A stretch of DNA of 64,000 nucleotides from Nodosilinea nodulosa PCC 7104 (GTDB taxonomy: Bacteria > Cyanobacteriota > Cyanobacteriia > Phormidesmidales > Phormidesmidaceae): positions 2,944,815-3,008,814 of the forward strand of contig NZ_JH976537.1 of assembly GCF_000309385.1 (NCBI RefSeq). Reading direction: 5' to 3'. The position numbers and the translations under genes are program-made. A model generated the notes under the pieces. That model had not been told where the DNA came from. It was given only the letters and a program-made list of their open reading frames with translations, and did no database searches. Positions 46,818-60,914 of this stretch are shown here, one piece after another (position 1 is the first letter of the stretch; each line of letters begins with the position of its first letter).

Positions 46818-49800
46818 CTACTTAAGCCGCTGCACGTTTTGCTGGGCGTAGGTCAAATTGGGCTGGTAGTCCACCACCTTCTGCTGGGCCACAGCGTAGT
46901 TGGGGTCTGACTTGGGCACCCGCTTCATCAGCTCAATGGAATTGGACCAGGAATCGGCAACGGCCTGCCACTGGTCCGCTGTGCTGGCGGTCTGGGCCTG
47001 GTTAGCCGCGGTCTGGGCCGCATTGACCGCCTGCCTGAACAGGTCTTCCTGGGGCACGTCAGCGGGGGGCGTGGTGGGCGCAGGTACCGCAGGCTCAGTC
47101 ACCACGGTGTCATTCCCAGGGGCGGGCTGTCGCAGCCGACCCAGCACGCTGTTGAGCAGCAGGCCTACCAGCGCCAGGACCAGCGCCCCAAGACCCAGCC
47201 CCACAATTAGCCGCAGCGGCAGGCCCGAGCGGCCCCTGCCCTCGTTTTCAAACTGGCCAGGGGCCAGGGCCACGTGGGTAGAGGGATCGGAGCCAAATTC
47301 TTGAATAAAGTCGTCGGTGGCGTCAGGCTCATCCTCCAGCAGGACAGCACCGTTGCGGTCTTGAATGAAGCCGTTGCTGTCATCGTGGCTGTCGCTGAAG
47401 ATGTCGTTGGCGTCAAAGCCCTCATCCCCAAAGCCCTCATCCCCAAGGCCTTCATCCCCAAAGCTCTCATTGCCAAAGCCTTCGCCAAATCCCTCGTCCT
47501 CGAAGCTGGCATCGGCGCCAAATATCGGGATCTCAGGCTCGGCCTCATCGCCGAAGCCCGATACCTCAAACCCAGGGCTGCCGGTTTCATTAATGTCAAA
47601 CTCGACCGATTCAAACGCCAAATCTGCTTCGGCGTCATCGGTGTAGTCAAGCGGGGCAGGGGTTACATAGGTCTCTGCAAAGTAGGTTTCGGGCTGCTCT
47701 TCAATCAGCGCGTTGTCATAGTCGTTGGACTCGCTGAAGCCGCCCTCGGGGGCTAGATCGGGCCTGAAGTTGCCCTCCACGGTCTGATCGAGTTCCATCG
47801 TCGAGAAGGGCAGATCGGCCTCAGCCCCCAGGTCAAAGGCCTCTGGCTCCCTCTGCGGCGTCTCAAAGTCGGGGGCATCGGCGGTGTAGTCCGTCTCCTC
47901 TGCGATTGCCCCCATCTCAAAGGGATTCGGCGTTGGATCGATGCCCTCGCTCTCGGGATCAAAGACCAGTCCGGGATCAAACTCGGTGCCTGCATCAGCT
48001 TCAAAGTCGCTGGGGGTGCCTAGGTCTAAACCGGGGCTAAAATCGTCAGGGACCGCATCCCAGGGCGGTGCGGCTGAGGCTGTAAGGTCAGGGTCGGCAG
48101 GCTGATCCCAGTCGGCGCTAAAGCCTGGGTCAAAGGCTTCGGCGGGAGCGGCTTCATCGGTGCCAAAGTTATCGGTGCCAAAGTTATCAGTGGCCAAGTT
48201 ATCAGTGCCCAGGTCACCCATGCTTAGATCGCCGTAGTCGCCTAGGTCGGTGTCTGTTTCAGCACCCATGGCTAGGTCGGGGGAAAACTCGTCGAAATTG
48301 TCGGTGAATGGGGTGGTTGAAGCCTCGCCAGGGCCATCTGTAGCCAGATCAACGTCGCCGCTGCCCAAGGCATCAATGCCCAAGTCATCGGTGCCCAGGT
48401 CGCCATAGTTATCGAGGTCGGCTTCTGCTTCGTCGCCCAGGGAGAGGTCAGTTGAGGCGTCGGCCCAGTCTTCGATGAGGTCATTGGCGGCCAAATCGAG
48501 GGTGGCAGCGCTGCTCAGGTCTTCAAACACAAGCTCCTCGGCGGTGGGAGCTGCGAGCAGATCGTCGGTACTGTCAGTGGCCTCCAGGGCCAGGTCCTCA
48601 GATTCAAAATCGAGGAATGCAGCGTCTTCAAAGGCGATCGCCCCTGCGCTCCCAGCTTCTGCTTCGGGCGTTTCCGGCTCTGTATCTGCCCTCACATCAC
48701 TATCGAAGTCAGCGTCTAGGTCGGCCCACTCATCGGGGCTAGTTAGCTCCGGGGTCAGAATATCGTCCAGGGCGGCCAGGTCGTCAATGGCAGACCCGTC
48801 GGCCCCTGCAGCGGGGGCGGTATTACTGGTATCGCTATCGCCCCACAGATCGTCCAAATCCATCGTTTCATCGGGCGCGTGCGGGCTGGCTGGAGGCGTA
48901 TTGAGGTCAAAGTCCAGGTCGTCGGATTCGAGATAGTCGGCGATCGCGGCCGATCCATCCTCTGCCTCCGCTAGGCTCAAATCTGCTTCAGGCTCAAACT
49001 CTGCCCCAAAGTCCAGATCCAGGTTGTCCGCAGACCCCAGGGCCACTTCATCTCCAGCGGCGTCAAACCCTAGATCGAAATCTGCGGCGTCTAAATCCAG
49101 GGCATCGGGGACGCTGCCCTCAGCGGCAGGGTCAGCCAAATCAAAATCTAATTCGCCTAATTCGCTAGTGGCGGGGTCGGCGGCGGATGCTGCGGCGAGA
49201 GATGCTTCGGTGAGACCAAAATCTAGCGCCCCCATCGAACTGTCGGTAGTGGGTTCTTCTACCCAGCCCAGGTCAAGATCGCTGTCAGCCTCCCCAGAGC
49301 CATCGACAGCGCCCAGCTCAAAGTCGAGATCGCTGGTGTCGCCCACCTCCCCCGAGTCGTTGTCCAGACCCAGGTCGAAGTCGAGATCGGTGCCGGTTTC
49401 GCCCGATGCTTCGGCGAAGTCCAGATCAAAGTCCAAAGCTGTTGGATCAGTCGACTCAGCTGGCCCAGCGGCCAGATCGAGGTCAAAATCGAGATCTCCG
49501 TCGAGATCCCCATCCAGATTTGCAGAGTCGGTGGCCTCGGCTAGACCCAAATCAAAATCGAGATCTGTGGGGTTTCCAGGGGGCTCCCCCGCCAGCGCTA
49601 GGTCTAGATCGAGATCTTTGCTGTCGAGGGTATCGTCAAAGCCGCTACCGAGATCCAGGCCATCCGGGCTGCTTTCACCCAGGTCAAGGTCAAAGCTGTC
49701 GGTGGCCTCAGGCCCAGAGGTTGGCTCGGCCAGGTCGAGGCCAAAGTCACCGTCATCAAAGTTTAGATCGAAGTCCGCTGCCCCGGAGCTGACTTCGCTG

Positions 49801-50306
49801 TCGCTATCGGTCAGGCCCAAATCATCGAGGCCCATATCGGCTCCGCTAAATTCGTTGCCCAGGGCGGCATCCAGGTCGCCGAGGTCGTCTATCTCCAGGG
49901 CAGAGCTGTCCGCATCAAACCCCAACGCTGCTCCCAGGTCTGTGTCGTCGCTGGCCGCAAAGTCGTCGGGGGCAGCGTCAAAATCCAGCTCAAAGGCGCT
50001 GGGATCGGTCTGTAGCGCCAGATTTTCGCTCCAGGCGCTAGTGCTGGCCCCAGTCTGTTTACCGCTCACGATCAGGTGATGCACAGCCGCTAGCTCCAGC
50101 CCCGTGATGCCTTTTTTGACGTAGGCGACCAAATCGGCCTGATTGGGAATTTGAGCACTCTCCAGGTTGACCTGGAGGGTGTTTTCCTGCTGCACGACGT
50201 GGGCGGTGATACCCTGGGCCTCGAGATGGCGATTCATCAGGGCCGCGATCGCGTCTGGGTTGCCCTGGCGGGCCAGTTGCAGAACATTGGGGGGCGTAGT
50301 AGACAT
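46818..50306 (-). CDS. Asp-rich repetitive membrane protein, 1162 residues
   Basis: Residues 1-85 form a compact domain (LARQGNPDAIAALMNRHLEAQGITAHVVQQENTLQVNLESAQIPNQADLVAYVKKGITGLEL) that I recall from several cyanobacterial proteins, function unknown. Residues about 95-985 are extremely acidic low complexity, with loose repeats such as LDFDLGLA, DLGDYGDL and FGDEGF. Near 1030-1052 is one membrane helix (LPLRLIVGLGLGALVLALVGLLLNSVL). The C-terminus is a helical tail (about 1085-1162: QEDLFRQAVNAAQTAANQAQTASTADQWQAVADSW). The layout suggests a cytoplasmic acidic region of about 900 residues tethered to a membrane. It could bind cations or act as a disordered brush, both inferred. Local exact repeats (for example GCC ACT GAT AAC-type blocks near 48170-48200) indicate slippage. 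Confidence 0.85.
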   Translation of the reverse strand: MSTTPPNVLQLARQGNPDAIAALMNRHLEAQGITAHVVQQENTLQVNLESAQIPNQADLVAYVKKGITGLELAAVHHLIVSGKQTGASTSAWSENLALQTDPSAFELDFDAAPDDFAASDDTDLGAALGFDADSSALEIDDLGDLDAALGNEFSGADMGLDDLGLTDSDSEVSSGAADFDLNFDDGDFGLDLAEPTSGPEATDSFDLDLGESSPDGLDLGSGFDDTLDSKDLDLDLALAGEPPGNPTDLDFDLGLAEATDSANLDGDLDGDLDFDLDLAAGPAESTDPTALDFDLDFAEASGETGTDLDFDLGLDNDSGEVGDTSDLDFELGAVDGSGEADSDLDLGWVEEPTTDSSMGALDFGLTEASLAAASAADPATSELGELDFDLADPAAEGSVPDALDLDAADFDLGFDAAGDEVALGSADNLDLDFGAEFEPEADLSLAEAEDGSAAIADYLESDDLDFDLNTPPASPHAPDETMDLDDLWGDSDTSNTAPAAGADGSAIDDLAALDDILTPELTSPDEWADLDADFDSDVRADTEPETPEAEAGSAGAIAFEDAAFLDFESEDLALEATDSTDDLLAAPTAEELVFEDLSSAATLDLAANDLIEDWADASTDLSLGDEAEADLDNYGDLGTDDLGIDALGSGDVDLATDGPGEASTTPFTDNFDEFSPDLAMGAETDTDLGDYGDLSMGDLGTDNLATDNFGTDNFGTDEAAPAEAFDPGFSADWDQPADPDLTASAAPPWDAVPDDFSPGLDLGTPSDFEADAGTEFDPGLVFDPESEGIDPTPNPFEMGAIAEETDYTADAPDFETPQREPEAFDLGAEADLPFSTMELDQTVEGNFRPDLAPEGGFSESNDYDNALIEEQPETYFAETYVTPAPLDYTDDAEADLAFESVEFDINETGSPGFEVSGFGDEAEPEIPIFGADASFEDEGFGEGFGNESFGDEGLGDEGFGDEGFDANDIFSDSHDDSNGFIQDRNGAVLLEDEPDATDDFIQEFGSDPSTHVALAPGQFENEGRGRSGLPLRLIVGLGLGALVLALVGLLLNSVLGRLRQPAPGNDTVVTEPAVPAPTTPPADVPQEDLFRQAVNAAQTAANQAQTASTADQWQAVADSWSNSIELMKRVPKSDPNYAVAQQKVVDYQPNLTYAQQNVQRLK

Positions 50307-50435: not shown

Positions 50436-53219
50436 TTACGGAGTTTGTTGGTTTAGCTGTCTCAAAATGCTTTCTAGCTGCTGTTGGGCCTCGCCGTAGC
50501 GCTGCCAATCTCCCTGCTGGAGGGCCTGCTGCCCCGCCTGGTAGGATTCAAGGGCCGCCTGCACTAGCTCGGAGGTCGTGCTGGCGGGGGGGGATACTGA
50601 CCCCGGCGATGGGGTGGTGGGTGCCGGTGTGCTCGCTTCTCCAAAGATAGCATCCAGGCTTTCATCCAGGGTTTCGCGCATGACGACGCGATCGCTGTAG
50701 GCGACAATCACCCGCCGCAGCTCGGGCAGCTCGCCCTGGTCGGCCCGCAGGTAAATGGGCTGCACGTACAGCAGCGACTGCTCCACCGGAATCACCAGCA
50801 GGGTGCCGCGAATGACCCCGGACCCCTGCTGACTCCAGAGGGTAATTTGCTCTGAGATTTCCGGGGTCTGGCTGATGCGGGCCTCGATCTGGGTGGGGCC
50901 AAACACCAGCTCCTGCTTAGGAAATTCGTAGAGCAGCAGGCGACCGTAGTTGTCGCCGTCGGATCCGCCCGCCATCCAGGCGATCATGTTGTCGCGGTTG
51001 GCGGGGGTAAAGGGCAAAATTTGCAGAAACTCCTCCTGGGCCAGCTTGGGCAGCTTCATGATCACGTAGTACGGCTCCATGGGCTGCACCGCGCCGTCGT
51101 CTACGACGTGCTCGGGGAAGCGCCACAGGTCTTCGCGGTTGTAGAACACCTCCGGATTTTCCATGTGGTAGGCCCGGTACATCTGGGCCTGCACATTAAA
51201 AATATCGTGGGGATAGCGCAGGTGCTGGCGGTAGCTGTCGGGCAGATCGGCTATGGGCTTAAACAGGTCAGGAAAAATGCGGCTGTAGGTAGACAGCAGG
51301 GGATCGGTGCTGTCGCGGGCGTAGAGCTCCAGGGTGCCGTCGTAGGCATCGACAAAGACTTTGACGGCATCGCGAATGTAGTTGACGCCGTTGCGCATCA
51401 GCGGATTGGCGCTGTCCACCAGCGAAATCAGGTCGCTGCGGCGGTTGAGCGGCTCGGAGTAGGGGTAGCGATCGCTGCTCGTATACCCATCCAAAATCCA
51501 CTTAATGCGCCCGTCAATGACCGCTGGGTAGGGGTCGCTGTCGAAGGTGAGAAAGGGTGCTACCTGGCGCACCCGATCGGTAATCAGCCGGTGGTAGTGA
51601 ATGCGGGTCTCGGGGCTGAAATAGTTTGAAATCAGAATGCGGAAGTTGCCCAGGTCGTAGGCGTAGACCAGTCGACGCAGCCACGAGGTGAGCGGTACTC
51701 CCCCCGCCCCGGTGTAGCGGTAGGCGGCGTTGGTGTCGCCCTGGGGGTAGTCAAACTCGTCGGTATTGGCCCCGGTAAAGATGTAGTTGCGGGTGCTTTC
51801 GCCGTAGTAAATGCGGGGCTGGTCGAGGGGCAAGTCAACGGTGCTGCTGGGGGGCACATTGCGAATGAAAAACTCCGGCAGGCCGTTGGGGGTGACCTGG
51901 TTGACGGGGCTCATCACCACGCCGAAGCCGTGGGTAAATTTGAGCTGGCGGTTGATCCAGTTTTGGGCCTCGGGGGGCAGCTGCTCCACCGGCAGCTCCC
52001 GGGCCGAGAGGCTGACCTGGCGGTAGTCGCCGTTGAGGGTGTAGCGATCGATATCGACATCCTCAAAGTTGTAGTAGAGGCGAATTTCCTGCAGTTGCTT
52101 GTAGGTGCTCAGCAGGGGGGCGTAGTCCCACAGGCGAATATTGCCCACGGTGGGGCCGTTGGTCTCAATCAGGTTGCGGGTCAGGCTGTTTTCGGCAGGG
52201 AAAGGCTCTGAGGTAACGCTGGTGAGGTTGTAGGCCTGGCGGGTAAAGGCAATGTTGTGCTCAATGTAGGGGCGCTCGATGGTCAGCTCGTTGGGCTCGA
52301 CCACAAAGTTTTGCTGCAACCAGGGGTAGAGGCCGTTGACCAAAATCAGCACGCCCAGGTAGATGACGATGCCAAAAATCGGCAGCGAAAAGCCGCTGCG
52401 GGCCAGGGCAATCATAAACAGCGCCGCCACCGCCAGGGTGACAAACCCCATCAGCCAGTAGGCCTGGAGCCGGGCGTGAACGTCGGTGTAGCCCGCCCCA
52501 AAAATGACGCCGCGATCGGAGTACAGCAGCGAGTAGCGATCGAGCCAGAAGCCCGCCGCCAGCACCACTGCGATCGCCGCCAGCAGCAGGCACAGGTGGG
52601 CCTTGGCCTCGCCGGTCAAAAAGTACTTCCAGCCCCGCTCCGGGCGTACCTCCCCCTTGAGGGCGTAGACCGTGGCGGCAATCAGCAGTGCCCACACCAG
52701 CAGCCCCAGCAGGTTGGCCTGTAGCCCCTCCCACAGGGGCAGCTTAAACATGTAAAAGCCGATGTCGCGCTGAAAGATCGGGTCGGTGACGTCAAAGGCG
52801 GTGGGGTTGAGAAATTGCAGCACCGTTTGCCAGGCCGACGCGGCCCGCAGGGCCACCCCCAGGGCCAGCACAAAAATTAGCCCCACCATACCCAGGTGCA
52901 GCAGCCGTTCTAGCTGGGCACGCTGGGCTGGGTCGCTGTGGCGAGCCGAAAATCGGTAGGCGCGATCGCGGGTCAGCCGCTGCGCCATGTGGTAACTCGC
53001 CCACAGCCCCCCGCCGTAGAGGAGAAACCCACCCGCCCCCAGGGCCAGCTGCCACTTAACGCGGAGCCAAAACACCGACCCGTAGCCCACCGACTCAAAC
53101 CACCACGACTCGGTCAGTAGGTGCACCAGACCGCCCGAGAACACCAGCAGCAGCGTCACGGCTACCAGCCAGGGCAGCAGGCGACGAACTCGGAGAGACT
53201 TGGTGGAAGAATAGGTCAC
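50436..53219 (-). CDS. UPF0182 family multi-pass membrane protein
   Basis: The protein of about 927 residues has seven or so N-terminal membrane helices (first 300 residues: LLPWLVAVTLLLVFSGGLVHLLTESWWFESVGYGSVFWLRV and so on). A large extracytoplasmic domain follows, with family motifs YIEHNIAFTRQAYNL, IRLWDYAPLLSTYKQLQEIRLYYNF, YGESTRNYIF and HYPHDIFNVQ-like RYPHDIFNVQAQMYRAYH. UPF0182 proteins occur in actinobacteria and cyanobacteria with no known role. The start is uncertain: GTG 53219 (VTYSSTKSLRVRR) is used, with TTG 53270 also in frame. The C-terminus is a Ser/Pro/Thr linker and a Gln-rich helix. Confidence 0.88.
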   Translation of the reverse strand: MTYSSTKSLRVRRLLPWLVAVTLLLVFSGGLVHLLTESWWFESVGYGSVFWLRVKWQLALGAGGFLLYGGGLWASYHMAQRLTRDRAYRFSARHSDPAQRAQLERLLHLGMVGLIFVLALGVALRAASAWQTVLQFLNPTAFDVTDPIFQRDIGFYMFKLPLWEGLQANLLGLLVWALLIAATVYALKGEVRPERGWKYFLTGEAKAHLCLLLAAIAVVLAAGFWLDRYSLLYSDRGVIFGAGYTDVHARLQAYWLMGFVTLAVAALFMIALARSGFSLPIFGIVIYLGVLILVNGLYPWLQQNFVVEPNELTIERPYIEHNIAFTRQAYNLTSVTSEPFPAENSLTRNLIETNGPTVGNIRLWDYAPLLSTYKQLQEIRLYYNFEDVDIDRYTLNGDYRQVSLSARELPVEQLPPEAQNWINRQLKFTHGFGVVMSPVNQVTPNGLPEFFIRNVPPSSTVDLPLDQPRIYYGESTRNYIFTGANTDEFDYPQGDTNAAYRYTGAGGVPLTSWLRRLVYAYDLGNFRILISNYFSPETRIHYHRLITDRVRQVAPFLTFDSDPYPAVIDGRIKWILDGYTSSDRYPYSEPLNRRSDLISLVDSANPLMRNGVNYIRDAVKVFVDAYDGTLELYARDSTDPLLSTYSRIFPDLFKPIADLPDSYRQHLRYPHDIFNVQAQMYRAYHMENPEVFYNREDLWRFPEHVVDDGAVQPMEPYYVIMKLPKLAQEEFLQILPFTPANRDNMIAWMAGGSDGDNYGRLLLYEFPKQELVFGPTQIEARISQTPEISEQITLWSQQGSGVIRGTLLVIPVEQSLLYVQPIYLRADQGELPELRRVIVAYSDRVVMRETLDESLDAIFGEASTPAPTTPSPGSVSPPASTTSELVQAALESYQAGQQALQQGDWQRYGEAQQQLESILRQLNQQTP

Positions 53220-53270
53220 AGGTAGGGTCGGTAGGGGCAGATATATGTTTGGGGCAAGACTCTGGGGCAA

Positions 53271-53692: not shown

Positions 53693-56600
53693 ATGAGTGA
53701 ATATACTGGTATGACCCCCACCGTAATCATCGGCCTGGGGGGAACCGGCAAAGAAATTCTGATCAAAATTCGCCGCATGATTGTGGAGCAGTACGGCTCC
53801 CTCGATGCGCTGCCGATTGTCTCGTTTTTGCACATCGACACCGAGCAAAACGCCCGTGTCTCCGAAGCTCAGACCGTGCTAAAGCAGGATATTTCCCTGC
53901 GGCCCATCGAGCAGGTGTGGGCCAAGGTCGAAGATGCCAAGGCGATTCTCAACAAGCTCTCGGCTTACCAGTACCTAGACGAGTGGTTTCCGAGCGAGCT
54001 GAAGGGCACCGACTCGATCTTGTCTGGGGCGGGGCAGATCCGCGCCCTGGGCCGGTTTGCCTTCAGCCTCAACTACCCGCTGATTAAGGACTACTTCACC
54101 AAGGCCAGGGGGCGCATCGTCGGCCACGAAAAGTTCATGCTCGATCGCTGGAAGGTGCAGCTCGACAAGGGCATCAACATTTTTGTGGTGTGCTCGCTCT
54201 CCGGCGGCACCGGCTCGGGCATGGTGATGGATCTGGCCTACAACCTGCGCGACTGGGTGCCGGTGTCAGAACTGCCCCAGACCAGCGCTTTTTTGGTGCT
54301 GCCGGGGGCGTTTTCAGGCCTGGGCGATCGCGTCATTGCCAACGCCTACGCCGCCCTGATGGAGCTGAACCACTACAGCCGCAGCGACACCCGCTTTGAC
54401 GTGCAGTACAGCGACAGCCAGAGCGATCGCATCACCACCCAGAGCGGCCTCGATACCCCCTTCAACTTCACCTACCTGGTGGGTAACAGCAACGACAAAG
54501 TCACCTTCCCCACCCTGGGCGACGTGCTGGAGATGGTCTCTCAGAACGTCTTCCTCGACTTTACCTCCGGCTTTAGCCAGTACAAAAAGCTGGTGCGCGA
54601 CAACGTGCGCAAGCACTGGGCCAGCCCCGACGCCCTGGGCTATCCGCAGAACTTCATGAGCTTTGGCCTCTCCAGCATTCAGTTTCCGGTGGAGCGAGTG
54701 CTGAACGCCTGCTCGGCCCGCCTGGCCGCCAAGCTGGTGGACTGGTGGAGCAACCCCACCCCCGCCCCAGCGGCGATGTCCGACCTAATACGCACCGAAA
54801 TTCTCCCCGGTCTATTCCTGGCCGAATCCGAGCACGACCACCAGATCATCGACAGCATCAGCATGGGCGACAACAAAAAGCCCTACGCCAAAGAAGTTGC
54901 CGACTGGGTAGCCGGGGTGCGCAAGCGCCGCAACGACCTGAATATTCCCTTTGAAAATCTCCAGCGGTTTATCTCCAACGAGCAGGAAAAATATTCTCCC
55001 CACTTCAACGACACCGGCACCGACCCCAAGCGCTGGAGCGACTACTTCCAAAAAATGTGGGACAACCTGAGCTGGCTGATTCCTGAAAAGCGCAAGGAGC
55101 TGCGGGCCACGGTTTACCAGATGGTAGAAGACCGCTTCCGGGGACCGAAGTTTACCCGGCAGTTTCTAGAAGTGCTGATCGAGGTCTTTGCCGACTTTCG
55201 CAGCAAATTTGACCAGGACCGGCAGAAATACTGGCTGCCAAGGGAGCGATCGGCCCAGAACGCCCTGCAAACCCTGCTGAAGCAGATCGACGATCATGCC
55301 AAGCAGATGATGATGCTCAACCGCAAGAAAGTCATCGAAGACGACTTTCAGGGCATCATGCAGGCGCTAGAGCAGGTCTACGTCTCCAAGGTGGAGGTCA
55401 AGGCCCGCACCCTGGGGGTGATGCTGCTGGACGGCCTGCGGGAAGAAATTGACCAGCTCCTGGTCGATCTGACCGCCTTTGAGACCGTGCTGGCCAACGT
55501 TCAAACCGAGCTGAAAGACAAAGAGCGCGTCTACACCCGCGAAACCGGCGGCCTGACGGTAAACGGCATTTTGCTCTACGACGAAAAAGAAATTGACGCC
55601 GCCTACACCAAAACCGTCGCCGACCAGGAAGAAACGCTCTGCCAGACCCTCTCCCAGCAGGTGCTGGAAGAGCTGCGCCTGCGCCTGTTTGATCTCTATC
55701 CCTTCGACGCGCTGAAGACGAGAGACCTCTACGATCGCCTGCTGGGTCAGGCTATGGATGTGTTTCGTCGGCGCAGCCAGCTCGACATTTCCACCGCCCG
55801 CAAATTCCTCGAACAGTACCCCACCGTCGAAATGCAGGAGGCCCAGATCAAAACCACCTTTGAGAAGTCGGAGGCCTTTTTGCGCCTCAGCCAGGAGCAA
55901 AAGAAACTGGGCTGGGACGACAAGCTGGAGAAGTACCAGAAGCTGGTGGGCATTCAGGGCGGCAGCAAGCCCACCGACCCCGCTGTAGCCAGCCTGCTGC
56001 CGATGATTCGCAAAACCAGCACCGTCACCGACAAAGAGATTCGCCCCCTCAACGACCCCTACCACATCTACTTTGTGCAGGAAACCGGGGCCTTTCCGCT
56101 GCGAATGATTGAGGGCATGGAGCGGATGCGATCGCTCTATCGCGCCGTTTCCCAGGCCGACCACAACCCCCTGCACACCCACCAGGACTACCGCCAGTTT
56201 GGCGACGTCATGCCCGAAACCAGCAACGAGCGCCAGGCCCGCTACAACCTGATGCTGGCCAACGCTCTGGGCCTGGTGCGCCAGGAAGACAACCGCGTCA
56301 CCGGCTTTGCCGAGGTCAAATTCACCTACCGCAACAAGCTCACCGGCTTTGATCAAACCGAGGTAATGGGCACCACCTGGCAGGAGGCCGAAGATTTCTT
56401 GCTCACCGACCAGAACCGTCGGCTGGCAGAAACCCTGGACAGCGCGATCCGATCTATCGGCGAGCAGGCCGCCACCAAACCCCAAAAGCAGGCCCTCTAC
56501 GACCAGGTGATGACCTACCTGACCCAACAGGAGCAAACTCTCCCCGGCGGCTCCGACAGTGCCGAGTACCAGCGCATCCAGGCGGCGATCTCCAACTTCG

Positions 56601-57055
56601 TCACCACCCACCGCCTCTTCATCCCCTCCGACACGCCCACTCCCTCACCCGCCACCCCATCACCCGCCACCCATCCACCCATCCACCCATCCACCCCCCC
56701 GCCCCCCGCCCTTGACTCCGAGAACCTGGGCAAATACGCCAAGCTGGTCGAGACCTGCTATCGCCGGGGTACACCCTCCCCCACAGAGCTGGAGCTACTG
56801 GAAAAATTCCGGGTCAAGTATGGGGTTTCGGTAGAGCAGGCCAATGCGATCGCGGCCCAGTTTTTGCCCCAAAACACGGTGGAGAATGCCGCCAGCGAGT
56901 TTGCCCTGATGTTCCGCGCCTTCCTCGATAACGACGGCGAAATTGATCTCGAAGAGCAGACCCAGCTCATCGATCTCCAGGAAGAGCTGGGCCTCACAAA
57001 CGAACAAGTCGCCACCATTGAGGAGAACGTGCGAGCTGAAATGAACCGGCCTTAG
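53693..57055 (+). CDS. Large tubulin/FtsZ-superfamily protein with EF-hand-like tail
   Basis: The 1120-residue protein opens with a nucleotide-binding loop (PTVIIGLGGTGKEILIKIRR, residues 9-28). The tubulin signature SLSGGTGSGMVMD is at 168-180 (GGTGSG at 171-176), the hallmark of the tubulin-like family Tubulin_2. Around 450-760 it is rich in long charged helices. After residue 965 comes a Thr/Pro/Ser linker coded by simple repeats. The C-terminal 110 residues are helical with an EF-hand-like loop (LDNDGEIDLEEQ, near 1078-1089). Family members are predicted GTPases linked to membrane remodelling, but none of this type is well studied. The next gene, 139 bases downstream, is on the same strand. 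Confidence 0.88.
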   Translation: MSEYTGMTPTVIIGLGGTGKEILIKIRRMIVEQYGSLDALPIVSFLHIDTEQNARVSEAQTVLKQDISLRPIEQVWAKVEDAKAILNKLSAYQYLDEWFPSELKGTDSILSGAGQIRALGRFAFSLNYPLIKDYFTKARGRIVGHEKFMLDRWKVQLDKGINIFVVCSLSGGTGSGMVMDLAYNLRDWVPVSELPQTSAFLVLPGAFSGLGDRVIANAYAALMELNHYSRSDTRFDVQYSDSQSDRITTQSGLDTPFNFTYLVGNSNDKVTFPTLGDVLEMVSQNVFLDFTSGFSQYKKLVRDNVRKHWASPDALGYPQNFMSFGLSSIQFPVERVLNACSARLAAKLVDWWSNPTPAPAAMSDLIRTEILPGLFLAESEHDHQIIDSISMGDNKKPYAKEVADWVAGVRKRRNDLNIPFENLQRFISNEQEKYSPHFNDTGTDPKRWSDYFQKMWDNLSWLIPEKRKELRATVYQMVEDRFRGPKFTRQFLEVLIEVFADFRSKFDQDRQKYWLPRERSAQNALQTLLKQIDDHAKQMMMLNRKKVIEDDFQGIMQALEQVYVSKVEVKARTLGVMLLDGLREEIDQLLVDLTAFETVLANVQTELKDKERVYTRETGGLTVNGILLYDEKEIDAAYTKTVADQEETLCQTLSQQVLEELRLRLFDLYPFDALKTRDLYDRLLGQAMDVFRRRSQLDISTARKFLEQYPTVEMQEAQIKTTFEKSEAFLRLSQEQKKLGWDDKLEKYQKLVGIQGGSKPTDPAVASLLPMIRKTSTVTDKEIRPLNDPYHIYFVQETGAFPLRMIEGMERMRSLYRAVSQADHNPLHTHQDYRQFGDVMPETSNERQARYNLMLANALGLVRQEDNRVTGFAEVKFTYRNKLTGFDQTEVMGTTWQEAEDFLLTDQNRRLAETLDSAIRSIGEQAATKPQKQALYDQVMTYLTQQEQTLPGGSDSAEYQRIQAAISNFVTTHRLFIPSDTPTPSPATPSPATHPPIHPSTPPPPALDSENLGKYAKLVETCYRRGTPSPTELELLEKFRVKYGVSVEQANAIAAQFLPQNTVENAASEFALMFRAFLDNDGEIDLEEQTQLIDLQEELGLTNEQVATIEENVRAEMNRP
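56637..56703 (+). repeat. Simple repeats coding a Pro/His/Thr/Ser linker in the tubulin-like gene
   Basis: ATCCACCC is repeated three times at 56673-56696, preceded by related CACCCGCC/CCATCACC units. The period is 8, as in priA and in the spacer at 58773. The encoded linker reads ATPSPATPSPATHPPIHPSTPPPP in pieces, between the GTPase-like body and the EF-hand-like tail. Confidence 0.85.
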
Positions 57056-57056
57056 G

Positions 57057-57156
57057 AATTTTGGATTGGCGATTTTGGATTGTCCCTTTCCTCCAAGGAA
57101 CGGTGAGCAGGTGAGATCGCCTCAGCTATTCAATCCAAAATCCAAAATCCAAAATT
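57057..57156. repeat. Inverted repeat of the TTTTGGATT type
   Basis: The left arm AATTTTGGATTGGCGATTTT starts at 57057, and the right arm AATCCAAAATCCAAAATCC lies at 57132-57150. Together they form an AT-rich stem-loop between the tubulin-like gene and the zinc-ribbon gene. The unit is a common dispersed cyanobacterial repeat. It could weaken read-through into the next gene. Confidence 0.75.
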
Positions 57157-57194
57157 CCCCCACCTCTCCACCCCATCAACTCTAAAAAATCACC

Positions 57195-58757
57195 ATGACC
57201 GACAGCTTCAATCACGTCACCTGCCCCAAATGCGGCTACGAAGAAAACTCCACCACCGCCCAGAAGTGTGAGATCTGTGGCCAGCCCCTAAAAAAGAGCA
57301 AATCCATGGCTCCGATCATTGCGGGGGTTGGGGCTGCCCTCTTTTTGGGGGCGCTGGGCTTCACGGGCTACAACGCCTTTTTCCGTAAGGATGCACCCCA
57401 GCCCAACCCTCAGGTCACCAATCCTACCAATCCTCCGGTGGATGCCAATGCGGGAGGAAACACAACGGCTGCGACCCCGACGACGACCCCAGGGCAACCG
57501 GGCAATGTCGCCAACGCCCTGAGCTGGGGAGAGAGAGTCCTCTTTACCGACACCTCCAACCCCGACATGCAGGCCGGGGCCGCCGCCTACGCCACGGGTG
57601 ACTATGCCACTGCCGCCGCCAGGTTTGAGGCGGCCCGCCAGGCTGTTCGCAACGACCCGGAAGCACTGATTTATGCCAATAATGCCAAGCTGGGGGCAAC
57701 TCCGGCCCTGGGTATTGCCGCCGTGGTGCCCATTGGCGACACCCCCAACACCGCCCGCGAGCTGCTGCGCGGCGTGGCTCAGGCCCAGGATGAGGCGATC
57801 AAGGCCGGGACGCCCATCAAGGTGCTGATTGCCGACGATCGCAACGATGCCGGTCAGGCCACCGCGATCGCCAACGCCCTGGTGCAAGATCCCAACGTTA
57901 TCGGCGTGATTGGCCACGGCACCAGCACCACCACCCTGGCCGCCGCCCCCATCTACCAGCAGGGCCAGCTGCCGATGATTGCCCCCACCAGCACCACCAC
58001 AGAGCTGACGACGATTCCCCGCCAGGGGAGTAATTTTGTCTTTCGGGTCATCCCCAGCGACCAGTTTACCGGCACCACCCTGGCCCGCTACATGCTGTCT
58101 GAGGGCAAAGCCAAGCCGATTGTGTTCTACAACTCCCAGAGTTCCTACAGCAAGTCGTTGCAGGATGCCTTTACCACCACTCTGGGGCTAGAGGGGGGCC
58201 AGGTGGTGAAGCTGGTTGACCTGTCCCAGGGCAACCCCACCGCCGAGCTGCAGGGCAGCGGTGCCGATGCCATTGTGCTGCTGCCCGACTCGGCCACCTT
58301 TGATGCGGCGATCGCCGTCGCCCAGCTCAACAATGGCCAGCTGCCGGTGCTGGCCGGAGATGCCTTTTACCGCATTGAGGCCCTGCAAAAGGGCGGGGCC
58401 AGCCTCACGGGTACCGTGGTGACGGTGCCCTGGCACCCGCTTAAATCGACGCCGCCCTTCGCCCAAACCTCGTCCAGCCTCTGGGGTGGCGATGTCAACT
58501 GGCGCACGGCCCTCAGCTACGATGCCTTCCAGGCGTTTCGCTCAGCCCAAGCGGTGGGCAAAGTTGCCCCCGCCAGCGGGCCGCAGGGGCGAGTAGCCCT
58601 GGGTCAATCCCTGGCTGGGCAGGGGTTCTCTGCTACGGGCTCAACGGGAGCGATTAGCTTTTTGCCGTCGGGCGATCGCAATACCACCGTCTTGCTGGTC
58701 AAAGTGCAGCCGGGCAGCCGATCGGGGACTGGCTTTGACTTTGTGCCTCTGCCGTAG
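57195..58757 (+). CDS. Zinc-ribbon / TM / ABC-type substrate-binding fusion protein
   Basis: The 520-residue protein begins with a zinc ribbon (C10, C13, C25, C28: CPKCGY and CEICGQ), clearly cytoplasmic. One membrane helix follows (about 38-59: MAPIIAGVGAALFLGALGFTGY), then a Pro/Thr/Asn-rich linker (65-105) and a short helical TPR-like part (120-150). A complete periplasmic-binding domain of the branched-chain amino-acid type follows (about 165-520: ALGIAAVVPIGDTPNTARELLRGVAQAQDEA, VIGVIGHGTSTTTLAAAPIY, PMIAPTSTTTELT). It thus joins an intracellular metal finger to an outside ligand sensor. No permease or ATPase is near, so it is probably a receptor. It lies directly downstream of the tubulin-like gene. 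Confidence 0.88.
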   Translation: MTDSFNHVTCPKCGYEENSTTAQKCEICGQPLKKSKSMAPIIAGVGAALFLGALGFTGYNAFFRKDAPQPNPQVTNPTNPPVDANAGGNTTAATPTTTPGQPGNVANALSWGERVLFTDTSNPDMQAGAAAYATGDYATAAARFEAARQAVRNDPEALIYANNAKLGATPALGIAAVVPIGDTPNTARELLRGVAQAQDEAIKAGTPIKVLIADDRNDAGQATAIANALVQDPNVIGVIGHGTSTTTLAAAPIYQQGQLPMIAPTSTTTELTTIPRQGSNFVFRVIPSDQFTGTTLARYMLSEGKAKPIVFYNSQSSYSKSLQDAFTTTLGLEGGQVVKLVDLSQGNPTAELQGSGADAIVLLPDSATFDAAIAVAQLNNGQLPVLAGDAFYRIEALQKGGASLTGTVVTVPWHPLKSTPPFAQTSSSLWGGDVNWRTALSYDAFQAFRSAQAVGKVAPASGPQGRVALGQSLAGQGFSATGSTGAISFLPSGDRNTTVLLVKVQPGSRSGTGFDFVPLP

Positions 58758-58862: not shown

Positions 58863-58894
58863 ATCACCCCATCACCCCATCACCCCGTCACCCC
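58863..58894. repeat. Four tandem 8-bp repeats (A/G)TCACCCC
   Basis: Units at 58863, 58871, 58879 and 58887. The last copy contains the stop codon of the minus-strand lipase gene, so repeat growth here reached a coding end. Confidence 0.9.
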
Positions 58895-60810
58895 TCCGGG
58901 GTGCTCCGCCGTGCCCGCATGCGCTCTTTCATGCCTTCCACAAAGTCGCCGCTGATCATGCCCTGCTCGATCTCTAGCTTGGCTTCTTCCTCTTCGCGAT
59001 CGAGGGCCTTTTGCAGGTTGGCCACGTAAAACTCCATCTTGTGATCATCCACGGCGTCGGGGGTGCCGGAGGTGAGAATGGCGCGGATCATGCCAAACAG
59101 TCGGTCGGGGAAGCGCTGGAACATAAAGGACTGGCGGCGCAGGCTGCCAGCGTCGTTGAAGTAGCGAAACTGACCCATGTGGCCGTACACCCGCGTTGGC
59201 ACCCAGGGAATAATCTGGGGCGGTATCATTGGCACGATGTCGTTGTTGTTGACGTAGCGAATGATGCGATCGCCCATCCTGCCATTCATGTAGTTGACCA
59301 GTTTCCAGTCGGCCACGCGGGGCTGGCCAAAGGTGTAGAGCCCGGCGACCTCAAATCCCTGGGCTTCTAGCGCGATCGTGGCCACTGCCGCCAGCGCGCC
59401 CCCCAGGCTGTGGCCCGTCACCCAGAGTTTGGTATCGGGGGTGACCCATTTTTTCAGGTAGTAGACCACCTGCTTTTCCACGCTCTGCCAGGCGTCTAAA
59501 AACCCCCGGTGCACCCGCCCCGTGGGGGGCACCGCTTCCTGGTCGGCCAGCACCGTAAACTGCTTGAGGCGAATCTTCAGGTTGGTCTTCCAGTCGTTTA
59601 GCTGTTGAGTGCCTTTAAACACCAGAATCAGGTTGTTGTCCTTGCGGAACATAAACGCCTGGGTGTCGGTAATCAGCATGTTGAGGTACTTGAAGTTGCT
59701 GCGAATGTCGCGCTCGCTGGCCTCTTCACCCTCCCGCAGCCAGTCTTTGATGACATCCACTACGTACTGGCGATTTGACATCCGCTTCCACTTATTGTCG
59801 ATGTCCTCGCTGAGCCACAGGCGCGAAATGTCGGTCACATACTCCCGGTCTTCGTAGACCAGGTGGGCGGCCTTGGCCAGGCACAGCGCCCGGTAGGTGT
59901 CGTACTTACCGTCCTCCGCTGTTTCAATGCCGCTGAAGTCGTGGGTGGAGTAGGGTGGCGACAAAATTTTGAAGCCAAACCGCTCAAACAAGTCTTGCAC
60001 TCGGCCGTAGCCCGCCCAGGTGATGTAGTGCGACAGCTTGTCGTAGAAGCCAGACCCCCCCTTGCGGCGGTAGCGGCGATCGCCAATCAGCCTGATCCAG
60101 TAGATGATGAAGGGCTTGATCTCTTCGGCCATCACCAGCCCCGACTCGATCATGATCTCGAAGTACTCCAGCCCGCCCAAAAACGAGTCAAACCAGTCGC
60201 GCAGGGTGACTTCAATCACAAACTCTTCGTTGTCGTACTGCTGCACCAGCTCCATGGTTTTTAGGGGAATGGTGCTGTTTTGGCTGGCCAGGCGCTTAAT
60301 TTCGTCGAGCCCGTTGCGCATTTTGACCATCTGATCGTGCGATCGCAGCGCCCGCCTGAGCCGATAGTCGTTGGCCTCAAAGCTAATCAAGTGGCCATCT
60401 TCCGGATGGTTGATGTAAAACGTACGGTACTCCTCATAGTCGAGAATATCCAGCACGTTTTTAACCGCCGCGCGCTCGCGAAAGGCTTTGACCTCCTGGC
60501 GGGCCAGCTCGACTCGCTGCCAGCGCCGCTGCTGCTGGTAGATGTGCAGCCAGGTCAACGCGATAAACGCGCCGCCCGCCAAGCTCAGGCTGGCCAGCAG
60601 CAGCGCTGGAGAAACTCCCCTCACAACCCTTAGAGGAGCCCTCAGCAGCCGCCTGGGCATGCCCTGGCCTATAAACCCCGCCGAGTTGGCGGCGGCAGAT
60701 AGCTGAAGTACCGGGTTCGGCACTAACTCCGCCGCAGGTGCCGAAGCGACTACACCCGCAGTCAGCCCCAGCGAGACCCCAAAAACCCAAAAAAAACGAC
60801 GAATGGCCAT
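58888..60810 (-). CDS. Membrane-anchored class 3 lipase-like protein
   Basis: The product is 640 residues from ATG 60810; the frame is open to TTG 60870, but the signal sequence starts MAIRRFFWVFGVSLGLTAGVVASAPAAE. A second hydrophobic helix (LLLASLSLAGGAFIALTWLHIYQ) is near 70. A helical middle part follows, then the lipase domain: NLILVFKGTQQLNDWKTNL, the nucleophile elbow VTGHSLGGALAAVATIAL (Ser near 465), and FGQPRVADWKLVNYMN with NDIVPMIPP supplying the Asp region. This is the Lipase_3 type. The C-terminus is highly charged (LQKALDREEEEAKLEIEQ). The substrate is unknown. It faces the zinc-ribbon gene end to end. Confidence 0.9.
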   Translation of the reverse strand: MAIRRFFWVFGVSLGLTAGVVASAPAAELVPNPVLQLSAAANSAGFIGQGMPRRLLRAPLRVVRGVSPALLLASLSLAGGAFIALTWLHIYQQQRRWQRVELARQEVKAFRERAAVKNVLDILDYEEYRTFYINHPEDGHLISFEANDYRLRRALRSHDQMVKMRNGLDEIKRLASQNSTIPLKTMELVQQYDNEEFVIEVTLRDWFDSFLGGLEYFEIMIESGLVMAEEIKPFIIYWIRLIGDRRYRRKGGSGFYDKLSHYITWAGYGRVQDLFERFGFKILSPPYSTHDFSGIETAEDGKYDTYRALCLAKAAHLVYEDREYVTDISRLWLSEDIDNKWKRMSNRQYVVDVIKDWLREGEEASERDIRSNFKYLNMLITDTQAFMFRKDNNLILVFKGTQQLNDWKTNLKIRLKQFTVLADQEAVPPTGRVHRGFLDAWQSVEKQVVYYLKKWVTPDTKLWVTGHSLGGALAAVATIALEAQGFEVAGLYTFGQPRVADWKLVNYMNGRMGDRIIRYVNNNDIVPMIPPQIIPWVPTRVYGHMGQFRYFNDAGSLRRQSFMFQRFPDRLFGMIRAILTSGTPDAVDDHKMEFYVANLQKALDREEEEAKLEIEQGMISGDFVEGMKERMRARRSTPEG

Positions 60811-60914
60811 AGTCTCTAGCGACAAACTTCCATTTCTTGCCCTGATGCTACCGGAAAAACCCCTATACAACCTATAGAGGACCGCCCCATCCCTAACTTG
60901 TCAAATGATCATGG

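Follow-up and report, generated by a model that had tools for sequence, protein, structure and literature searches.

The FtsZl1 family of tubulin-like proteins was published in 2010 by Makarova and Koonin (PMC2875224) and corresponds to the Pfam family PF13809, Tubulin_2. According to that paper a vWA gene lies in the majority of FtsZl1 operons, and a reviewer's comment in it mentions that FtsZl1 of Arthrospira platensis has a branched-chain amino acid binding protein as its neighbour and suggests a role in transport and/or signalling. The relevant portion of a 2023 paper on FtsZ/tubulin evolution describes Tubulin_2 as divergent and sparse (PMC9871819). Here we describe a 64,000-nucleotide stretch of the Nodosilinea nodulosa PCC 7104 genome (the window; G000:C1:2944815-3008814, where G numbers denote genomes and L numbers loci), in which a gene of this family is followed by one encoding a predicted zinc-ribbon membrane protein with an outer solute-binding domain. 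Comparison across genomes supports the second protein as a dedicated, clade-matched membrane partner for two cyanobacterial FtsZl1 clades, A and B. This partner is what the present data add to the 2010 paper, the cited portions of which offer a loose set of neighbours only. In a literature search that was run mostly without subscription papers and preprints, no paper among the matches listed described a zinc-ribbon/solute-binding-protein partner of FtsZl1, the sole trace being the 2010 reviewer's remark.

The two genes and their products

The pair is as an earlier note on this DNA had set it out, with open reading frames of 1120 and 520 residues on the same strand and 139 bases between them. 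The features of the pair are the following.

53693..57055, + strand: Tubulin_2/FtsZl1-family GTPase-like protein, clade A, 1120 residues (PF13809 match, 17-row alignment)
53723..54742, + strand: Tubulin_2 domain, residues 11-350 (Pfam)
54203..54220, + strand: GGTGSG glycine loop (T4-type), residues 171-176 (invariant in the 17-row alignment)
55037..55549, + strand: predicted long helical/coiled-coil region, residues 449-619 (low-confidence model)
56714..57043, + strand: clade-A-specific helical tail, residues 1008-1117 (alignment, model, profile search)
57058..57158, + strand: hairpin between the genes, formed by a dispersed repeat and not followed by a U-run (RNA fold z -5.25 for 57050-57200)
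57195..58757, + strand: putative membrane receptor/tether of 520 residues, arranged as zinc ribbon, transmembrane helix, helical hairpin and type-I solute-binding domain
57222..57278, + strand: zinc ribbon, C10-x2-C13 ... C25-x2-C28 (alignment of nine receptors)
57300..57371, + strand: single transmembrane helix, about residues 36-59 (hydropathy)
57561..57692, + strand: helices like tetratricopeptide repeats (TPR), residues 123-166 (TPR by eye; model)
57708..58739, + strand: Peripla_BP_6/ANF_receptor-type ectodomain, residues 172-515 (Pfam, Foldseek, sequence matches)

The proposed membership of the first protein in the tubulin superfamily is borne out by a PF13809 match with an E value of 1.1e-93 (314.8 bits against a curated cut-off of 27), the only match to this family in the genome, and by the GGTGSG loop at residues 171-176, which, like G16-G17-T18-G19, is unchanged across 17 aligned rows (the window protein and 16 others). 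The GTP-loop signature takes the form SGGTGSG, with S170 in all rows at the position where the motif of the 2010 paper, GGGTG[ST]G, begins with G. Pfam at E 0.01 gives the protein no domain besides PF13809, FtsZ_C and Tubulin_C being unmatched, and in a low-confidence model the coiled-coil middle and the mostly helical C-terminal part fit the FtsZl1 layout. When a profile of the protein was run against PDB sequences nothing significant was returned, the one match (E 0.21) being to Macrodomain Ter protein. Its nearest named relatives, with 91-95% identity in the best segment, are loci of Nodosilinea, Tildeniella, Shackletoniella, Leptolyngbya and Phormidium tenue. The tail had been described as EF-hand-like, a description that we do not retain. 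The canonical EF-hand loop has an acid at position 1; FLDNDGEIDLEE has F there and no acid, the later acids differ between orthologues (FLENNGEID, FLGNDHQID, FLENDGEIG), and EF-hand families are unmatched in Pfam at E 0.01. As judged by alignment, this is a clade-specific helical tail without conserved acidic positions and not a canonical EF-hand.

The second protein combines the parts that the earlier note had ascribed to it, namely a zinc ribbon, one membrane helix and an amino-acid-type binding domain. Its C-x2-C pairs lie at residues 10-28, with Pfam zinc-finger matches that fall under curated cut-offs; 19-residue segments with a mean Kyte-Doolittle hydropathy above 1.6 are confined to one stretch at about residues 36-59; and Peripla_BP_6 is matched with E 2.9e-26 (Pfam). 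Three helices between the membrane helix and the ectodomain (residues 123-166) are an addition to that description; support for a TPR assignment is weak, the only TPR_19 match being in L127 (E 0.044). A model of the ectodomain (mean pLDDT 56, with a good first lobe and a poor C-terminal part) resembles type-I solute-binding proteins, with 3hut as the top match (Foldseek E 7.6e-16) and mGluR ectodomains also among the matches, and the sequence itself matches 3hut (2.7e-21), the LivK protein TM1135 (7.7e-20) and LIVBP (1.2e-11). The window ectodomain retains GHxxS and P-x-S, aligned with the LivK-type loop, with Ser/Thr as in leucine-type binding proteins. Since these residues, which we take to have a role in ligand binding, are kept, an amino acid is the first ligand candidate. 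By sequence inspection, the N-terminus consists of the zinc ribbon and then the helix from about residue 36, in place of a signal peptide or lipoprotein signal. No ABC permease or ATPase was found by Pfam among the 16 window proteins scanned, a subset of the window's open reading frames. Both observations agree with the earlier suggestion that this is a receptor rather than part of a transporter. In an alignment of nine receptors, whose ectodomains are of three kinds, the ribbon (residues 10-32) holds 11 of the 13 invariant columns and the helix one.

The earlier note had held that a strong terminator between the genes, together with independent expression patterns, would speak against their link. 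A scan of the + strand between them found neither terminator-like nor promoter-like sites; on the - strand, one terminator-like match directly adjoins the start of the second gene. The hairpin without a U-run that is present there is strong but imperfect, and matches to its stem halves occur at 39 genomic places, its own among them. It looks like a later insertion, because the gap is only 4-33 bp in several other lineages.

Co-occurrence of the two genes across cyanobacteria

We searched for the pair in 386 cyanobacterial genomes (the phylum sample, a subset of all cyanobacteria), in 63 genomes of the family and in further named genomes, with open reading frames mapped mechanically. PF13809 was found in 75 of the 386, in 71 of them over the cut-off, and the 75 stretches around the stronger matches were analysed; the first count left out G016 and PF13809 matches below about 35 bits with frames near 500 residues. 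The scan of named genomes added 21 further loci, including Nostoc, Xenococcus, Pantanalinema, Phormidesmis, Gloeomargarita and a Gloeobacterales metagenome-assembled genome (MAG). In a tree of 86 tubulin rows, clade A (14 rows) and clade B (27 rows) each have a support of 99, and A+B a support of 91; the short rows L095, L099 and L106, all clade C by best BLAST match, were dropped from it. Of the L159 tubulin, which lies at a contig end, only a C-terminal part is present.

Used as a phmmer query on the FtsZl1 loci, the window receptor gave 12 matches, of which three were in clade-A loci (the window and two in L091), one of them weak. Read by eye, the neighbours share a zinc ribbon, and we then used this ribbon as the query. 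The clade-A ribbon and transmembrane helix were modelled as module A2 from 12 rows (the window, L108, L110, L111, L113, L115, L116, L119, L121, L122, L127 and L091). The zinc module of clade-B receptors differs (W-x-C-x-G ... C-x2-C) and was modelled as A5 from 11 rows, nine from eight phylum-sample genomes together with L140 and L145.

In the phylum sample, clade-A tubulins score at least 1685 bits by phmmer to the window protein, and other FtsZl1 loci at most 497. Module A2 exceeds 50 bits in 4 of the 386 genomes, which are exactly the four with a clade-A tubulin, and the next best genome reaches 36.6 bits (Fisher p, which here and below ignores shared ancestry, 1.1e-9; 1.4e-5 without the two seed genomes). 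Within the family sample A2 exceeds 95 bits in 17 genomes, 16 of which have a confirmed clade-A tubulin at 1282-2544 bits, while the 17th, G412, has a tubulin fragment at a contig end and the remaining 46 have neither gene (p 1.1e-12 without seeds and G412). Among the named clade-A genomes, nine of which also belong to the family sample so that the two counts overlap, the module (at least 76 bits) is present in 18 of 19, L110 and L120 being left out of the count and nine of the 18 being model seeds. The second clade behaves in the same manner: A5 reaches 46 bits in 24 of the 386 genomes, including all 23 with a clade-B tubulin (p 3.9e-36; 6e-26 without eight seed genomes), and G207 and G187 have two clade-B tubulins and two modules each.

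Both genes are also kept where they are unlinked. They lie 336 kb apart in G406 and 2.1 Mb apart in G422, and are likewise unlinked in G085 and G241. In 12 of the 23 clade-B genomes, some of them fragmented assemblies, the stretch analysed around the tubulin does not include the receptor; in five (G089, G179, G247, G095 and G312) the two clade-B genes share a long contig on which hundreds of kilobases separate them.

The earlier note had named rare adjacency in other genomes as grounds for refuting the link, but adjacency was found from Nodosilinea to Nostoc, Xenococcus and Gloeobacterales, with gaps of 4-211 bases. In many genomes of the Nodosilinea type the next same-strand gene encodes a zinc-ribbon/helix protein. 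Eight other genomes show the same arrangement, with gaps of 21 bp in G064, 4 in a Nostocales MAG, 10 in Nostoc FACHB-892, 33 in Xenococcus, 30 in SM1_3_5, about 60 in Pantanalinema, 85 in Phormidesmis and 17 in Gloeobacterales. Within the genus, 17 genomes have the module: the receptor is directly downstream in nine (gap 134-211 bp), behind one to four inserted open reading frames in two (G427, G405) and apart in four (G406, G410, G418, G422), and in G412 and G419 the sequence ends at contig ends. Two more named Nodosilinea-type loci have the genes adjacent (L120) or with one gene between (L110). The co-occurrence tests exclude chance for the pairing, and a link that had been drawn from gene order now extends to co-occurrence in the phylum, family and named samples. 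On these comparisons, the partnership of the two genes is strongly supported.

We used the genes on either side of the pair as controls.

50436..53270, - strand: UPF0182 membrane protein, left flank (kept in relatives without the pair)
58888..60870, - strand: lipase (class 3), right flank (adjoins UPF0182 at empty sites)

Nine of the 26 genus genomes, four of them less than 90% complete, lack both genes, and in seven of these nine the flanking UPF0182 gene is still represented by a close orthologue. The site is empty in five (G407, G408, G420, G421 and G425), with about 0.2-1.6 kb from UPF0182 to the lipase, which is cut by the contig end in G407, G420 and G425, and tblastn found no trace of tubulin or receptor in these five genomes. 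The flanks are likewise adjacent in G410, in which the pair lies on two other contigs. The cassette is thus present or absent as a unit at the window site. Further to the left (46818-50306, - strand) the window encodes a 1162-residue protein of low complexity that is very acidic, has a single hydrophobic stretch, at its C-terminal end, and gives no Pfam match; its relatives beside the same genes are 1111-1349 residues long.

Exchange of outer domains, possible mechanism and rival explanations

Mapping on 40 tree rows gives a single change of zinc module and at least six changes of ectodomain (WD40 paralogues excluded), which makes the predicted cytoplasmic zinc finger the part conserved with the tubulin and the outside the variable part. 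The module types were defined from the clades they came with, and the single change is therefore partly so by construction; the absence of strong cross-matches is not. A separate clade-A tree has at least three ectodomain changes. In all, 65 distinct module proteins were counted, many of them close relatives in one genus, and the domain counts are therefore not independent: module A occurs with PBP_6 (20), PstS-like (11), WD40 (4) and NMT1+OmpA (2) outer domains, and module B with PBP_6 (24), no recognised domain (coiled coil; 2), PhnD+SNase (1) and PstS-like (1). Both zinc modules carry PBP_6 and PstS-like ectodomains. By lineage, the clade-A ectodomains are Peripla_BP_6, PBP_like_2 (PstS-like) or NMT1 followed by an OmpA domain.

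Several individual proteins extend this inventory. A clade-B receptor on the Cylindrospermopsis plasmid NZ_CP060823.1 (L059:11641-13497, -) joins the zinc module to a PhnD-like and a staphylococcal-nuclease-like domain, and a Gloeobacterales protein (L165:3383-4942, +) is another zinc ribbon-transmembrane-NMT1-OmpA protein, at 23 bits to module A. In G187 (L084:16246-18315, -) two tandem tubulins accompany two tandem module-B proteins whose outer part reads as a coiled coil. Four Gloeomargarita-type loci (L129, L131, L162 and L164) hold a second module-A protein with a WD40 propeller (Pfam E 6e-85 in L129), unlinked to the tubulin. In G064 the clade-A tubulin is preceded on its own strand, at a distance of 172 bp, by a free-standing Peripla_BP_6/ANF_receptor protein (L091:12104-13417, -). 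At L115:11374-15789 an NMT1-type receptor is followed by the NMT1-type binding protein, permease and ATPase of an ABC transporter (Pfam); this set is perhaps the source of the receptor's outer domain.

The two proteins are probably parts of one machine linking the cell exterior to the tubulin-like protein inside. As the best explanation of the pair as a whole, we lean, by a modest degree of confidence, towards a modular transmembrane receptor/tether dedicated to the tubulin-like GTPase. The first gene would then encode a cytoplasmic tubulin-like GTPase, and the second a receptor/tether with a cytoplasmic zinc finger, one membrane helix and a periplasmic binding domain. The zinc finger would be the conserved connector, docking on the tubulin-like protein and recruiting it to the membrane; the outer domain would read a signal from outside, here probably an amino acid or a similar small solute; and the binding state of the ectodomain would set the assembly or action of the GTPase at the membrane. 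Other lineages would keep the zinc-finger/helix part and swap the outer domain, so that one tubulin-like core could serve different inputs. The sequences themselves show the domains, the clade-matched partnership, the joint presence and absence of the genes and the swapping of outer domains. Contact, topology, ligand binding, polymerisation, filament control and the direction of the signal are what we infer, and the membrane remodelling suggested in the earlier note likewise goes beyond the sequences.

The zinc ribbon has indirect support as the docking site, because the kind of ribbon matches the tubulin clade, whereas outer domains are swapped. On the tubulin-like protein, the docking surface would most likely be the helical body specific to clades A and B, or the tail. 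A profile of residues 361-620 is found in 27 of 27 clade-B rows and 2 of 48 other FtsZl1 rows, and one of residues 841-975 in 26 of 27 and 3 of 48, respectively; being common to A and B and hardly present in other FtsZl1 proteins, these regions are candidates for that surface. The tail was also considered as a docking site common to both clades, but the clade-A tail is found in none of the 27 clade-B tubulin-like proteins, 15 of which themselves contain a zinc ribbon close to the C-terminus; docking on the shared body (361-620 and 841-975) is therefore equally possible.

A number of observations weigh against a dedicated receptor/tether. The 19th named clade-A genome, a 2.1 Mb Gloeomargarita-type MAG, yielded no module, and five Gloeomargarita-type loci (L092, L093, L117, L118 and L124) have no receptor beside the tubulin. 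G056 has a module-B receptor (L158:2764-4401, -; 42-46 bits) and no clade-B tubulin, the sole mismatch in the phylum sample, and the distant phylum member G016 (L189) has a divergent FtsZl1 that fits none of clades A, B and C (about 22% identity to each), with neither zinc module found. The tubulin-like tail is not the same in A as in B, nor uniform within B, so that a common docking site is not evident, and the model of the tubulin-like protein is poor (pLDDT 53.6, pTM 0.34). Some outer domains belong to no ligand-binder family (the coiled coil of G187, the WD40 domain of the Gloeomargarita extra copies), and the ABC set adjoining the receptor of L115 is arranged as for ordinary transport. 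Finally, the phylum scans scored the 14-15 best first-look candidates per genome, which leaves absences slightly unsure, and the disregard of shared ancestry in the Fisher values counts on the same side.

One rival is a structural tether rather than a sensor: the zinc finger/helix protein would do no more than anchor the tubulin-like protein to membrane and envelope, and its periplasmic part would be a co-opted fold holding on to the wall or to other components of the envelope. The OmpA peptidoglycan-binding domain of L115 and L122, the coiled-coil-like parts of G187 and the WD40 propellers would suit such a grip, as would the OmpA-family genes beside FtsZl1 family members elsewhere. Most module-A proteins (33 of 37) and module-B proteins (26 of 28), many of them near relatives, carry solute-binding domains, from four Pfam families, which would be odd for a mere grip, however, and the LivK-type loop residues GHxxS and P-x-S are kept in the window protein; we regard a purely structural role as rather unlikely. 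Alternatively, the protein could be the solute-binding component, anchored in the membrane, of an ABC transporter whose other genes lie elsewhere, and the tubulin-like neighbour would be irrelevant to it. The LivK/LIVBP-type ectodomain, the transporter genes behind the L115 receptor and the free Peripla_BP_6 protein just upstream of the G064 tubulin are in its favour, but a zinc ribbon and helix take the place of a lipoprotein signal, permease and ATPase were missing from the window proteins scanned, the part conserved across receptors is the ribbon and not the binding domain, and the receptor tracks the tubulin clade whether linked or unlinked, all of which makes this explanation most improbable.

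A patchy cassette that is absent as a unit might also belong to a defence or cell-death system, with the outer domain noticing an attack on the envelope and the tubulin-like protein acting as effector. FtsZl1 genes occur elsewhere beside caspases (Azospirillum) and in an island with BrxL (Meiothermus), and tubulins figure in the predicted conflict systems described in the cited portions of PMC7159879. PADLOC, however, gave nothing convincing (one match of E 0.0059 to 61 tail residues and none for the receptor), and Pfam found no toxin or nuclease domain in either window protein, so that a defence role appears very unlikely. Hitchhiking, in which a two-gene cassette is gained and lost together without functional contact, would account for the clean empty sites between the same flanks, but it is largely refuted by the unlinked co-occurrence, both genes being kept far apart in the four genomes named above and in the 12 clade-B genomes with a distant receptor, and a second zinc module tracks a second tubulin clade; we give it hardly any credence.

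Beyond the favoured receptor/tether lies a bolder proposal, which is tentative and which we would not bet on: a one-protein chemoreceptor with a tubulin-family GTPase as its direct output, passing the presence of an outside ligand through the helix and zinc finger to polymer assembly at the membrane, with interchangeable outer domains for amino-acid-, phosphate-, nitrate/sulfonate- and phosphonate-like signals. If true, this would be a bacterial receptor that speaks directly to a tubulin-family protein and has been rewired in evolution by outer-domain exchange. The clade-matched partner also offers a simple handle on FtsZl1: there are two genes, the single contact is predicted to lie in a zinc finger some 30 residues long, and ligands of the outer domains could be screened.

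Comparison with known systems

The locus shares with the tubulin-containing GTPase-centric conflict systems (PMC7159879) the combination of tubulin-family proteins and membrane partners in multi-gene cassettes. In the portions of that paper cited here, however, the partners of tubulin are GTPases, HSP70, vWA and FNIII proteins, and a fusion of transmembrane and periplasmic-binding-protein (PBP) domains belongs to System 4, which is not one with tubulin.

Within FtsZl1 the window protein is typical in its PF13809 domain, GTP-loop signature and predicted helical/coiled-coil middle and in the lack of an FtsZ_C or Tubulin_C match, whereas its partner departs from the family norm in being a predicted zinc-finger/transmembrane receptor that is clade-matched and nearly always present. 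The vWA gene, a usual but not obligatory partner of FtsZl1, was not found among the 16 window proteins scanned, and a gene cluster with a weak VWA_2 match lies near the tubulin in 8 of 24 clade-B loci. Many clade-C FtsZl1 loci (e.g. L056, L063 and L065) have a vWA-like gene before the tubulin and membrane coiled-coil and OmpA-like genes after it; a vWA-like gene was counted in 38 of 48 loci, a membrane coiled-coil gene in 38 and an OmpA-like gene in 34, Pfam backing OmpA alone, and weakly, in the examples scanned. A MotA-type reading of the membrane gene beside clade-C FtsZl1, made by eye, has no Pfam support and was set aside, and a literature search for ZorA with tubulin gave only unrelated papers among the matches listed. 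On a Meiothermus taiwanensis plasmid (L177) a vWA gene and then FtsZl1 stand in an island with DUF1156, a Swt1-family HEPN protein and BrxL, and on a plasmid of Azospirillum sp. TSA2s (L178) FtsZl1 lies near three caspase-family and three OmpA-family genes.

In its type-I PBP ligand domain on a membrane protein, the putative receptor resembles the mGluR-type receptors and the bacterial receptors with PBP ectodomains. Unlike those PBP-ectodomain sensors, it has no kinase, cyclase or chemotaxis output domain, and its predicted cytoplasmic part is a zinc finger alone. ZipA is a membrane tether of FtsZ. Like ZipA, the protein described here would be a one-helix membrane protein whose cytoplasmic part is proposed to hold a tubulin-family protein at the membrane; unlike ZipA, it has just a short zinc finger on the cytoplasmic side and a solute-binding domain on the opposite one.

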